Shown: positions 53,401 to 61,182 of the stretch, in pieces
How the letters are laid out: each line of letters begins with the position of its first letter
How positions within the stretch are numbered: position 1 is the first letter of the stretch
Origin: Pelecanus crispus
Lineage: Eukaryota; Chordata; Aves; Pelecaniformes; Pelecanidae
Length of the DNA: 64,000 nucleotides
Assembly (NCBI RefSeq): GCF_030463565.1
Contig: NC_134643.1
Span: 168,352,491 to 168,416,490 of the forward strand
Reading direction: 5' to 3'
Translations under genes and position numbers: made by a program
Notes under the pieces: model-generated
What the model was told of the DNA's origin: nothing
The model's database searches: none
Seen by the model: only the letters and a program-made list of their open reading frames with translations

Positions 53401-55845
53401 CTTCATGCTGACATACAAATCCTTCTAAGCTATGCATGACCCACTGCAACCCCCAAGCACGCTCCTGCACCGGGGAAGGGTTCGGGCAAAAGGGGCGACG
53501 TACCCACCCACCGTCAGAGGCGGTAACAGGCTCCCAGCAGAGCCCGTAACCGCTAGCAGGGGAGCCTGGGCTAGGCTAGCTACCAAAAGCACCTCTGGTT
53601 GTGGTGGCTGCCCCTCTGCCCTGTCCCAGCTTGCCCGGCCTGTGCTGTGGGGGCGACGGCACTCTCCCTCCAGCCTGCCTTTCATCCACATCGCGCCTGG
53701 GCAGCGGGATCTGGCCCCACAGCATTTAGAGATGTTCTTGAGAAACACTGCGGCCAAGCTTCCTTCCACTACTGATAAACTGTCTGGCCAGAAGGATGGG
53801 ATAAAGGCCCCTCCAGATGTGCATTTCGGATTTACTTCTGTCCAAAATGAGTCAGTGCTCGGACAGCTGTTTCACTGTGCAGCAGGCACCTCAGAAACTC
53901 ATTCCTTGGGCAAGTGGAGCGTCCTACCCAATGCACAAGGCTTCCTAGACTTGAGTTTGGACAAAGGGGTGGTAAGGACTTTGCTGTCGCATTTCTTCTT
54001 CTTTCTGGAATTCTAAATGTTCCCAATTCTGCACACTTGCTTTGTGACTACGCTCTTCTTCTTCTGAAAACAGATTAACCCAGCACTAAAAGAACAGCTA
54101 AACAGTAGATTCGGTGGATGCGAAAGGTTACGCGCTGGTGATCACTCTGTGCCCACCCGCACACAGACCACGGCTCCTTGCCCAAGCCTGGAAGCCACAT
54201 TCTCGGCTGCTACACTTGGCCGTAGGGTCACTGAGACCGGCGGAGTTAAGCCAGCTCTCCCACCCCTTCGGAAGAACCGGCAAACCCCTCTGCCACCACA
54301 GGGCTGGGTGAAAAGAAGGTCTGGGGAACGGTACTTCTCCATCCGAGGGAAGCTGCCTGCAATAGGGATGCTTAAGGGTTGCACGCGTTCCCTCTTTTTA
54401 GTATCTTGACCTCTTTTAGCCCTTTCTATGTACAGAGGTTAAAGGTTTTCTGATATTGGTATTAATTAACCTCAAGATAATATTAATCCCTGTTACGATA
54501 ATATTAATCTCTGTTAGTGATTTGATTAACAGACTTTCTTTTCCTTTTAAACAAACCTTTCACACCAAAATCCACTCCCAGACTCCCGCGCAAAGGCAGC
54601 GTCTGGCCAGACCGTGGACAGCACACCTGATTTTTTGGGAGTATCAAAGCCACTGGGACCCTGTAGAGTTTATTCATTTATGACCATAAAAACCTAGAAA
54701 AGGTGCAATCATTTGAAAAAACTTTCCTCCCTTTCTTTACAGTCACTCCAGAGGCTACAAACCGATGCCAGCCGCGCTTCCCCTGTTTCTACCGGCCATA
54801 ATCAGTGCGGATTTATCAACTAAGAGTTCAGTCGCAAAGATTTCCTGCAGTCACCCAGTTTCCCAGTAGGGCTTTCTTAAAGGGCAAAAATGTTTCCCCT
54901 GAACCGGGGAAGAAACGCAGCACCAGCTCAGTCTTTGGTGTCAGGCACTACAGCAAAACTCGCAGCTTCGCTTCAAAATAACACTGCCCTAAAACTAAGC
55001 TGAGCTATGCATCACTTTTGCATACCTTTGCATCCCTCACCGCCCCAAGCTTTTACACTGTCATTTATCAACGAAGCAATTACATCCAAGTTAATAACCG
55101 CTTAGCACAGAAAAGCCCAAAGGAACATTAATTAAAACAAAATGACGCAAAGGCTTGTTCTTCTCCACCGACCGTTGCACGGCTGGCAAAACCATAAAAA
55201 AGAGGAATGTCACGACAGGCGGAAAATAAATCGGCAAGAAAAATTTGCCTGCATTCTTCTTGTGTCAAATCCACACGCACGGAGTATTCCGATGGCGGGG
55301 CAAAGAAAAGAAAAAAAAAAAAAAAAAGAAGCAGGTAGCGACAGCGAGAAAGGCCAAAACGGGCACTTAGGCACCGAACGGAATCTAAATCGGCGGGTTT
55401 CGGGGGGCGAGAAACCCACTCCCACGGGTGCGCACCTGCCCACGAGCCCCCGTGGGAGCCGCCTCCGCCGGGGTCCCCGCCGACCCCCCCCAACTGCCCC
55501 CCAGCCCCGCCGAGGCACAGGGGCCGGCCCGGGGGGAGGGGGGGGAGCCCTGGAGCCCCCCGGCTTCCCGCATGCTGGTCTGGGGAGTGGGATGGGGTTG
55601 GGGTGGGGGTCGTGGGGGGCCTGACCGTCCAGCGCCAGCATGGATGGGAAGTCCTTGCAGTTGGAGACGCCGGTGGAGTCGGTCACGCAGGTCTTCCAGA
55701 GGTTGGCCCAGAAGGTGGCGGTGGTGATGACCGTGCCGTCGATGGTGGACACCTTCCAGTAGTCGGTGGGCAGCGTGGAGGAGACCAGCACCCAGCCCGA
55801 GATGGTCAGCAGGAAGGCGATGATCTCCGCCGACGTGCTCGCCAT
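41384..55845 (-). CDS. CLDN10: CLDN10, claudin-10 isoform b (5 coding exons)
   Basis: Claudin-10b is a four-helix tight-junction protein that forms paracellular cation (Na+) channels in epithelia. Five minus-strand exons splice in frame into 228 residues, the same length as human claudin-10b. Visible: helix 1 (about 8-26); first extracellular loop with the claudin signature W30, N48-L49-W50, C53 and C63; helix 2 (about 80-100); helix 3 (about 116-136); second loop with FFDPSFVAQKYELG (146-159); helix 4 (about 160-183); and a cytoplasmic tail ending NAYV, a PDZ-binding type terminus. The start ATG (55845-55843) begins MASTSAEIIAF, as in the b isoform. Introns are GT-AG. Exon 4 (108 bp) could be skipped without a frameshift. 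A G-rich minisatellite abuts the start. The alternative CLDN10a first exon was not found. Identity is near certain. Confidence 0.97.
41499..42196 (-). other. CLDN10 intron 4
   Basis: 0.7 kb intron between GTAAAA and TTTTCAG on the minus strand; nothing further recognised. Confidence 0.75.
42197..42304 (-). CDS. CLDN10: CLDN10 coding exon 4
   Basis: 108 bp (36 codons). It encodes YELGAALFIGWAGASLCIIG, then a stretch ending IFCFSIAENSNSPR: the end of loop 2, helix 4 and the start of the tail. Its length keeps the frame if skipped. Confidence 0.96.
42795..42950. repeat. Alternating TA/CA/TG-rich tract
   Basis: About 155 bp of irregular TATA, ACAC, GTGTGC and ATGCAT words, largely alternating purine and pyrimidine. 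This resembles a decayed (CA)n/(TA)n microsatellite and is the type of sequence prone to Z-DNA. It lies in CLDN10 intron 3. Confidence 0.75.
43909..43933. repeat. poly(A) run in CLDN10 intron 3
   Basis: A25 homopolymer on the plus strand followed by GAAAAA. No retroposon body is recognised beside it. Confidence 0.85.
48554..48635 (-). CDS. CLDN10: CLDN10 coding exon 3
   Basis: 82 bp, phase 1 to phase 2, with a GTAAGT donor. It encodes LCSMTSCSLYANRITSEFFD then PSFVAQ: the end of helix 3 and most of the second extracellular loop. Confidence 0.96.
48636..48799 (-). other. CLDN10 intron 2
   Basis: A short 164-bp intron with a GTAAAT donor and TTTTCAG acceptor on the minus strand. Confidence 0.85.
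48800..48961 (-). CDS. CLDN10: CLDN10 coding exon 2
   Basis: 162 bp, phase 1 to phase 1. It encodes YIQACRGLMISAVCLGFFGA, then MKCTKVGGSDQTKAKIACLA up to IFILS: helix 2, the short cytoplasmic loop and helix 3. Confidence 0.97.
48962..55625 (-). other. CLDN10 intron 1
   Basis: 6.7 kb intron between the b-type first exon and exon 2. No CR1 copy and no CLDN10a-type first exon (W...GLW...C...C signature) was recognised. There is a small 21-bp duplication at 54476-54517. Confidence 0.65.
54476..54517. repeat. 21-bp tandem duplication
   Basis: Two adjacent 21-bp copies beginning GATAATATTAATC differ at two positions. It is in CLDN10 intron 1 and AT-rich. Confidence 0.8.
55626..55845 (-). CDS. CLDN10: CLDN10 coding exon 1 (b type)
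   Basis: 220 bp, ending in phase 1 before a GTCAGG donor. It encodes MASTSAEIIAF, GWVLVSSTLPTDYWKVSTID, a WANLWKTC segment and NCKDFPSMLALD: helix 1 and the first extracellular loop with the NLW and two-cysteine signature. The frame stays open upstream through the minisatellite, but no in-frame ATG precedes this one. Confidence 0.97.
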
Positions 55846-55856
55846 GGGCCCGGCGG

Positions 55857-56472
55857 CAGGCAGGCGGGCAGGCAGCGGGCAGGAGGGCAGGGAGGCGGCG
55901 GGCAGGAGGGCAGGGAGGCGGCGGGCAGGCAGGGAGGCAGCGGGCAGGAGGGCAGGGAAGCAGCGGGCAGGAGGGCAGGGAGGCAGCGGGCAGGAGGGCA
56001 GGGAGGCAGCGGGCAGGAGGGCAGGGAGGCAGCGGGCAGGAGGGCAGGGAGGCAGCGGGCAGCAGGCGGGCAGGAGGGCAGGGAGGCAGCGGGCAGGAGG
56101 GCAGGGAGGCAGCGGGCAGGAGGGCAGGGAGGCGGCGGGCAGGAGGGCAGGGAGGCAGCGGGCAGGAGGGCAGGGAGGCAGCGGGCAGCAGGCGGGCAGG
56201 AGGGCAGGGAGGCAGCGGGCAGGAGGGCAGGGAGGCGGCGGGCAGGCAGGGAGGCAGCGGGCAGGAGGGCAGGGAGGCAGCGGGCAGGAGGGCAGGGAGG
56301 CGGCGGGCAGGCAGGGAGGCAGCGGGCAGGAGGGCAGGGAGGCAGCGGGCAGGAGGGCAGGGAGGCAGCGGGCAGGAGGGCAGGGAGGCGGCGGGCAGGA
56401 GGGCAGGGAGGCAGCGGGCAGGAGGGCAGGGAGGCAGCGGGCAGCAGGCGGGCAGGAGGGCGGGCGGGCAGG
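55857..56472. repeat. 23-bp G-rich minisatellite at the CLDN10 start
   Basis: About 24 head-to-tail copies (counted by eye) of a 23-bp unit with core GCAGGGAGGCRGCGGGCAGG. Some units are short, around 15 bp, and three interruptions read GCAGCAGGCGGG (near 56059, 56185 and 56441). T is virtually absent from the plus strand. Each unit supplies four G-triplets separated by loops of 5, 2 and 7 nt, fitting the G-quadruplex rule. The array starts about 12 bp upstream of the CLDN10 ATG, so it occupies the 5' UTR or core promoter. Because 23 is not a multiple of 3 and the unit has no stop, long spurious frames open on both strands. Confidence 0.95.
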
Positions 56473-56720
56473 CGGCGCGGAGCCGCGGCGGCGGCAGCCC
56501 GGGAGCGGCCGAGTCCCGGCGGCGGCGGGCGGAGCGGGGCGGCGGCGGCGGCGGCGGCCCCGGGCGGCGCAGCCCAATCAGCAGCGGGAGCTGCCGGTGC
56601 CCCCGGGGCCGCCCCCGCCCCGTCGGCCCCGCACCGCCTCCAGGGGGTCCCCCCCGGCCCCCGGGGCCGACCCCAGCCCTGCGGCGGGGCTTGGGGGGGG
56701 GGGGGGTGTGTGGTGTGAGC
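56473..56720 (-). promoter_or_regulatory. CLDN10: GC-rich promoter region of CLDN10
   Basis: A very CpG-rich stretch upstream of the minisatellite with GC boxes, a CCG-rich run near 56540, and a CCAAT pentamer on the plus strand at 56574 (an inverted CCAAT box for the minus-strand gene). No convincing TATA box is seen. The position relative to exon 1 is the main argument for a promoter; the transcription start is unknown. Confidence 0.55.
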
Positions 56721-56918
56721 GGGCGTTCCCCGCGGTAGCCATAAAAGCCAGACCCGAAAATAAACAACCAGCCAGGCGCCCTGGAATTAGGCTGGAGTTT
56801 CTCCTTCCCCTGCAGGTGAGCGGTGCAGGGCACGGGAGAGAGTGGCAGCGACTCGGCAGGTGCCTCCTTAGCGTTTTCTCCGCGCTTTCAGGTGTGCATC
56901 TCTTGCTGCATGCAGGCA

Positions 56919-56919
56919 C

Positions 56920-56950
<31 letters not shown>

Positions 56951-56953
56951 AAA
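56919..56953. repeat. C22-A13 homopolymer pair
   Basis: A run of 22 C followed directly by 13 A. Exact lengths may be unreliable because such runs are hard to sequence. Confidence 0.85.
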
Positions 56954-57259
56954 GCAGCCTTGCCAGGGGGGTAGTTCTGAGCAAGGCTTGTAGAACACAA
57001 GGGGTGCCGATCATTCCGAGCGCTCCACAGTCACGCACAGGAGGTAAGCTTTTGAAATACCTAGCAAGGTGTTTTTAATCCTCTGCATTTCAGCTGGCCT
57101 CCTGTTATTACCCGGCCACGGACGATACAGCTTTTAATAGCTGGTTTTGCAACGTGAGGTGATGAACTCGGGATTTTCTACCTCAGTCTTAATGCACTGG
57201 CATTCGAGCCTGCAGCTCACAGGTGTAAAGTTATCCACCGGCATCTCCTCTTGTTCGAA

Positions 57260-59755: not shown

Positions 59756-61182
59756 TAGACTAGACTATTTCAGTTGGGAGGGACCTACAATGATGACCAA
59801 CTGCCTGACCAATTCAGGGCTGACCAAAAGTTAAAGCACGTTCTTAAGGGCATTGTCCAAATGCCCTTTAAACACTGACAGGCTTGGGGCATTGACCACC
59901 TCCCTAGGAAGCCTGTTCCAGTGTTTGACCACCCTCTCGGTAAAGAAATGCTTCCTAATGTCCAGTCTAAACCTCCCCTGATGCAGCTTTGAACCATTCC
60001 CACGCATCCTCCCACTGGATCCCAGGGAGAAGAGCTCAGCACCTCCCTTCCACTTCCCCTCCTCAGGGATATGTAGAGACCAATGAGGTCGCCCCTCAGC
60101 CTCCTTCTCTCCAAACCAGACAAGCCTATGAGGTCCTCATCTGCTCCTCACAGGACATGCCTTCCAGCCCTTTCACCAGCTTTGTTGCCCTCCTCTGGAC
60201 ACATTCAAGGCCCTTCACATCCTTCTTAAATTGTGGGGCCCAGAACTGCACGCAGTCCTCCAGGTGAGGCTGCACCAACGCTGAATATGGCGGGATAATC
60301 GCCTCTTTTGACCGGCTGCCTATGCTGTGTTTGACGCACCCCAGATGCGGTTTGCCCTGTCAGCCAGGGCACACTGCTGACTCATTGAGCCTGCAGTTGT
60401 CCAGCACCCCCAGATCTTTTTCTGCAGGGCTGCTCTCCAGCCACTCCTCTCCCAATTTATACTTGTACCCGGCGTTACTCCATCCCAGGTGCAGAATCTG
60501 GCATTTGGACTTGTTAAACTTCATCCCATTAATCAGCCTAATGCTCCACTCTGCCTAGATGCCTCTGCAAGGGCTCCTGTCCCTCAAGAGAGACAACAGC
60601 ACTTCCCAGTTTGGTATCATCAGCAAATTTGCTAATGGTGCATTCAACTCCTGCATCCAGATTGTTGATGAATGTATTGAACAGAACTGGCCCCAGAACT
60701 GAGCCCTGAGGAACACCACTGGTGACTGGTTGCCAGCCAGATGTAGCCCCATTCACTGCAACCCTTTGAGCTCTGCCCTTCAGCCAGTTCTTCACCCAGC
60801 GCACTGTGAACCTGCTCACCCCACAGTTGGACAACTTCTCCAGAAGGATGCTGTGAGGGACAGTATCAAAAGCCTTACTAAAATCCAGAAAAACTACACC
60901 CACCGCCTTCCCTTCATCCACTAGGCAGGTGACCTTATCACGGAAGGATATCAAATTAGTTAAACAGGACCTTCCCTTTGTGAGCCCATGTTGACTGTGC
61001 CTGGTGATTGCACTATTCTTTAAATGCCTTTCAATAGTACCCAGTATAATCTTCTCCATAATTTTCCAGGAACTGAGGTTAGACAGGTCTGTAGCTTCCT
61101 GGGTCTTCCTTCACACTTTTCTTGTAAACTGGCATAACGTTGGCTAGCTTCCAGTCAGCAGGGACCTCCCCAGACTCCCAAG
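59756..61182 (-). mobile_element. CR1 LINE with reverse-transcriptase domain remnant
   Basis: An antisense CR1 copy of 1.4 kb. A 173-codon ATG frame (61059-60538) holds RT motifs: [30 protein letters not shown] and the catalytic [12 protein letters not shown]. The rest of ORF2 continues in other frames towards 59785. Its 3' end (TTGTAGGTCCCTCCCAACTG, then a TAGTCTAGTC-like end) differs from the ATTCTATG-tailed copies, so it is another CR1 subfamily. It is 5'-truncated and inactive. Confidence 0.93.

Follow-up and report, generated by a model that had tools for sequence, protein, structure and literature searches.

A young G-rich minisatellite lies against the start codon of a claudin gene, most likely CLDN10b, in Pelecanus crispus

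What does a tandem array of G-rich repeats mean for a gene when it lies against the start codon? The question is raised by a 64,000-nucleotide stretch of the Pelecanus crispus genome (NCBI RefSeq assembly GCF_030463565.1, contig NC_134643.1, positions 168,352,491 to 168,416,490 of the forward strand; hereafter the window), in which a minisatellite with a period of 23 bp immediately precedes the first coding exon of a claudin gene, most likely CLDN10b. A first-pass annotation had suggested that such an array could tune transcription or translation, with quadruplex-prone units on one strand and possible i-motif-like or structured RNA on the C-rich transcript side. The explanation that we consider probable, short of confident, is that the array is a young GC-rich minisatellite in the claudin 5' leader, set against a CpG-island promoter, with transcription starting upstream of it, and that it is passively tolerated and mostly without effect.

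The array itself is real. Tandem Repeats Finder (TRF) calls a repeat of period 23 at 55855-56444, with 26.2 copies and 85% matches, and adds a higher-order fit of 126 bp that reaches 56461. Splitting the sequence at GGGCAG yields 30 pieces: 21 are complete 23-mers, three are 19-mers and three are internal 11-mers, while the remaining three, of 11, 16 and 12 bp, are degenerate pieces at the edges. A search of the entire window for the 23-bp unit with at most three mismatches recovers 21 copies, all inside the array (mean 0 in 100 shuffles), and self-identity at period 23 reaches 0.865, compared with a best-lag maximum of 0.537 over 300 shuffles. The array has a GC content of 0.80 and a CpG observed/expected ratio of 0.52, in a window of 42% GC that contains no N anywhere. 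With head-to-tail units of the 7-100 bp class, a period of 23 and 26.2 copies over about 600 bp, this is a minisatellite of a known kind, which we read as a 5'-leader minisatellite. Its distance from the ATG is 9 bp measured from the TRF edge and 20 bp measured from the first parsed piece, which makes the earlier figure of roughly 12 bp a fair one. The description of the array as directly upstream holds for the DNA; its assignment to the 5' untranslated region (UTR), rather than to the promoter, is one that we infer.

The array is also young and has grown recently. The 21 complete 23-mers fall into only three variants (14, 6 and 1 copies) with a mean pairwise identity of 97.7%, and the 19- and 11-bp variants interrupt them in a non-uniform order. 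In addition to an exactly duplicated 140-bp block (Table 1), the array contains two further exact direct repeats, one of 110 bp at a lag of 65 and one of 102 bp at a lag of 126. Such repeats show recent copying of blocks of several units, odd-length members included. The recent turnover proposed in the first-pass annotation has good support, both from the near identity of the units and from the long blocks that are repeated exactly. Judging from the sequence, length polymorphism between individuals is probable. Blocks would have been added in successive rounds of slippage or unequal exchange, at lags of 65, 126 and 256 bp, and this growth was perhaps favoured by the adjoining CpG island, where recombination in birds, which lack PRDM9, would be concentrated. 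In zebra finch, a bird without PRDM9, CpG islands are enriched for recombination events (PMC12047795). By analogy, CpG-island recombination is a plausible engine of unequal exchange. Exact repeat-unit patterns had no match in viral contigs (20-base pattern) or genome contigs (37-base pattern), collections that are microbial and viral and have little bearing on vertebrates.

Block repeats of this kind could also arise in assembly, in which case the true array would be much shorter or longer than it appears and the repeats partly made by the assembler. GC-rich avian repeats can be misassembled, and an older zebra finch reference both duplicated and misplaced the repeat blocks of DUSP1 (PMC5632298). 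Distinct 19- and 11-bp variants in non-uniform order, in a window free of N, speak against such an origin here, and we regard it as very unlikely.

The identity of the gene is well anchored at the family level. On the minus strand, the ATG at 55845 opens a reading frame beginning MASTSAEIIAFLLTISGW, and the product of exons 1 and 2 joined matches the Pfam family PMP22_Claudin (E 2.5e-22). Claudins share the signature W...LW..C...C, and the piece LWKTC...C of it was found. Among the 12 solved relatives listed from the PDB, a set without claudin-10, claudin-15 is closest (E 6e-20). Claudin-4 aligns with the exon product from residue 1, and this supports the ATG at 55845 as the start codon. Additional claudin exons lie leftward, near 48.9 kb and 42.3 kb. 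From its sequence the host exon is most likely that of CLDN10b; the name, together with the gene order DZIP1-CLDN10, is what we take to apply here. A second claudin first exon, of the 10a type, was not seen in the window by a short-motif search, which is a weak test. Pattern searches for relatives of the exon in microbial and viral collections returned 111 matches in genome contigs and nine in viral contigs, none of them confirmed in either.

Where transcription begins determines how much of the array would be leader. An inverted CCAAT box (ATTGG), a candidate site for NF-Y, lies upstream of the array (Table 1), and no TATAWA motif occurs on the minus strand in 55843-57100. The usual spacing between an NF-Y site and the transcription start would place initiation at about 56475-56520, where the array has its upstream edge. 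With such a start, nearly the whole array would be 5' UTR, in a leader of roughly 630-675 nt of which it would form the greater part. An upstream ATG at 56742 is in frame with the claudin and opens a reading frame of 54 codons. It is ruled out as the claudin start by its stop at 56578, in the CCAAT box and before the array, and would be relevant only if transcription began above 56742.

One property of the array that may bear on its tolerance is the composition of its sense strand. From the base preceding the ATG to beyond the far edge of the array, the sense strand contains no A (Table 1). This is the only T-free run of at least 80 bp on the plus strand of the window, and no A-free run of that length exists on the plus strand. 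Any unspliced transcript that starts inside the run would meet its first A in the start codon. The sense strand has no ATG between 56742 and 55845, and no stop in any frame from 56580 to 55845. Because the sense strand lacks A, no change in unit number can create an AUG or a stop codon.

The same openness permits a further reading, in which translation begins at a non-AUG codon and the array adds an in-frame extension to the N-terminus of the claudin. The claudin frame is indeed open from 56577 down to the ATG, across the array, within an open reading frame of 455 residues at 55210-56577. This openness, however, is a consequence of the A-free sense strand and is shared, across the array, by the other two frames. 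No in-frame near-cognate codon in 55846-56577 combines a purine at -3 with G at +4, and the alignment of claudin-4 from residue 1 is a further argument against a longer protein. We consider an extension of this kind extremely unlikely.

Predicted folding of the sense RNA gives a second possible basis for tolerance. The first-pass annotation had proposed that the C-rich transcript could be structured, and this is contradicted: the minimum free energy of the sense leader is -65.7 kcal/mol, compared with a mean of -92.6 in 20 shuffles, all of which (20/20) fold at least as well. Sixty further shuffles gave a mean of -94.1 against -67.4 for the leader, and a 191-nt sense piece was equalled or exceeded by 200 of 200 shuffles. 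Mean energies over 100-nt windows are -6.5 kcal/mol for the array leader, -38.4 for exon 1 with its flank and -62.8 for the upstream CpG island. Sense-strand structure was rejected as a candidate on the 20/20 and 200/200 comparisons. A sense-strand RNA quadruplex was rejected as well, none having formed in the one 100-nt sense piece in which quadruplexes were allowed. Accessibility of the start codon was modelled with the native array and with 0-40 units, at four assumed start sites. The predicted unpaired probability stays at 0.31-0.39 over native, 0, 1, 5, 10, 20, 30 and 40 units, and at 0.34-0.38 from five units up. These nearly flat models argue against a tuning of translation through structure at the start codon. 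With weak sense folding and flat openness, both structured RNA and start-codon tuning are unsupported.

Taken with the absence of AUG and stop codons, the scarcity of structure offers a reason why the array may be tolerated: scanning ribosomes would be able to cross any number of units. The array would then be mostly passive, with probable length polymorphism.

The strongest rival to passive tolerance is a regulatory length switch, in which template-strand quadruplexes, or factors that bind G-rich sites near the start, let unit number set CLDN10b transcription. The G-rich strand is the template strand of the claudin gene, as the first-pass annotation had claimed. Its statement that every unit fits the four-G-triplet rule does not stand as worded, since a complete 23-mer carries three G triplets and none of the 30 pieces fits the rule alone. 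It does stand for all 21 complete 23-mers once the GGG of the next piece is borrowed; with the 16-bp edge piece, 22 of the 30 pieces then fit, while the three 19-mers, the three internal 11-mers and the two other edge pieces fail even so. Across 55866-56465 there are 18 non-overlapping G3N1-7 motifs, compared with a mean of 6.65 and a maximum of 11 in 1000 shuffles (0/1000 reach 18). What the array holds, then, is a repeated four-G-run motif, above chance on one strand, that depends on its neighbour's G run. G4Hunter gives a mean of 1.38 and a maximum of 1.64, with 93% of 25-nt windows at 1.2 or above. The motif count and these windows favour the switch; against it, only 22% of windows reach 1.5, the loops of the motif are 5, 2 and 7 nt, and a single motif folds at -6.2 kcal/mol, about half the -12.6 of a telomere-like control (RNA parameters). 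Because the instability of the CEB1 and CEB25 minisatellites in yeast is tied to short loops (PMC5491262), which this array lacks, it is a moderate quadruplex candidate, and the modelled potential of the template strand can be called real but moderate. Quadruplexes may form there at times; any effect on transcription would be modest at most and would depend on array length. Among tested human UTR variable number tandem repeats (VNTRs), 6.8% are expression-associated, though the associated arrays are short (median 48 bp; PMC8024321). Overall we judge a length switch rather unlikely. By G4Hunter the array is outscored by the poly-G blocks that flank it, at 55572-55629 (2.29) and 56675-56726 (2.36).

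Several points weigh against passive tolerance and are best considered together. Two of them also favour the length switch. Human VNTRs less than 100 bp from a transcription start are twice as likely as others to be expression-associated (PMC8024321), which weakens the description of the array as mostly passive. One 100-nt piece of the G-rich strand, when quadruplexes are allowed, folds into three (two two-layer and one three-layer) at -54.7 kcal/mol under RNA parameters. Transcription could start inside the array, part of which would then be promoter. The CpG ratio of only 0.52 means that the array lies beside the CpG island rather than fully in it. Dinucleotide shuffling provides a weak null model when the sequence is a repeat, and in the models the leader's total folding energy increases with unit number, from -14.4 kcal/mol at 0 units to -86.4 at 40 (start at 56485). 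Lastly, tolerance based on the absence of A is an after-the-fact argument, as a single founder unit without A suffices.

A broader proposal builds on passive tolerance. In the absence of PRDM9, CpG-island recombination would keep building leader minisatellites, of which only those with an A-free sense strand would survive against a start codon; the array would be one of a class that is freely expandable, unstructured and AUG-proof, and that varies between individuals. We hold this to be distinctly unlikely. If the array is transcribed, from a start at or below 56513, the gene would have a long leader that is free of A up to the start codon, and would be a clean natural case for asking whether scanning is affected by the length of a leader alone. 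The array may also be a length polymorphism that short reads miss, hidden in a GC-rich promoter. Failing that, it is an ordinary minisatellite that was homogenised recently. The feature that we single out as most worth attention is that A is absent right up to the start codon.

Table 1. Positions of the array and associated features in the window
Feature	Coordinates	Strand	Basis
G-rich 23-bp minisatellite, unit GGGCAGGAGGGCAGGGAGGCAGC	55855..56465	+	TRF, unit parse, mismatch-tolerant search
140-bp block, exact copy at 56322-56461 (lag 256)	56066..56205	+	Exact-repeat comparison
A-free run of the sense strand, 668 bp, no ATG, no stop	55846..56513	-	T-free on +
First coding exon of claudin, MASTSAEIIAFLL...FPSMLALD, read as CLDN10b exon 1 (most likely), GT donor after 55626	55626..55845	-	Translation, Pfam, structure relatives
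CpG-island core promoter candidate, GC 0.87, CpG observed/expected 0.84	56466..56735	-	Composition
ATTGG (inverted CCAAT, context CTGATTGG), candidate NF-Y site	56574..56578	-	Sequence match

Elsewhere in the window, the N-terminal domain of DZIP1 (Pfam) is encoded near 2.2 kb, on the strand opposite to the claudin. A second GC-rich tandem repeat, with a 30-bp unit in about three copies, occupies 1815-1916, a short way upstream of where the N-terminus of DZIP1 is encoded. DZIP1 and the claudin gene thus each have a GC-rich repeat close to an exon that codes for the N-terminus. On the minus strand, 60538-61110 encodes a fragment of a reverse transcriptase (Pfam RVT_1), presumably CR1-like, a kind that fits a bird genome.

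Among the matches listed in the literature on claudin-10 or CLDN10 promoters and tandem repeats, no published account of an array in the CLDN10b leader was found, which does not prove absence. Among the closest known systems is the VNTR of the human TYMS 5' UTR. Units of the TYMS type carry an E-box (CANNTG) for USF, and unlike them the array has no CANNTG inside it. The two are alike in position, with the 28-bp TYMS repeat ending 13 bp before the start codon (PMC3320636) and the array 9-20 bp before it. They differ in copy number: TYMS, a known polymorphism, has mostly two to three copies and up to nine (PMC3320636), compared with 21 complete units in the array. Binding of USF-1 to the TYMS repeat is the subject of a title referenced in the same article (PMC3320636).

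Other parallels come from quadruplex-forming and avian repeats. Human CEB1 and CEB25 are, like the array, G-rich minisatellites with quadruplex-forming sequence, although their instability in yeast needs loops that are short, zero or one nucleotide long in the named forms (PMC5491262); those of the array are 5, 2 and 7 nt. GC-rich avian genes, namely leptin, TNF-alpha and PET100, have non-coding tandem repeats with quadruplex motifs (PMC6792250); in the present case, by contrast, a single array stands in a window of 42% GC. The zebra finch DUSP1 upstream repeat has a unit of 20-21 bp that differs in number between haplotypes (11 vs 8 copies), and hummingbird DUSP1 too has repeats upstream of a bird gene (PMC5632298). 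The DUSP1 repeats belong to another gene and consist of another unit; they are described as lying upstream of the coding sequence and are discussed in connection with vocal learning (PMC5632298).
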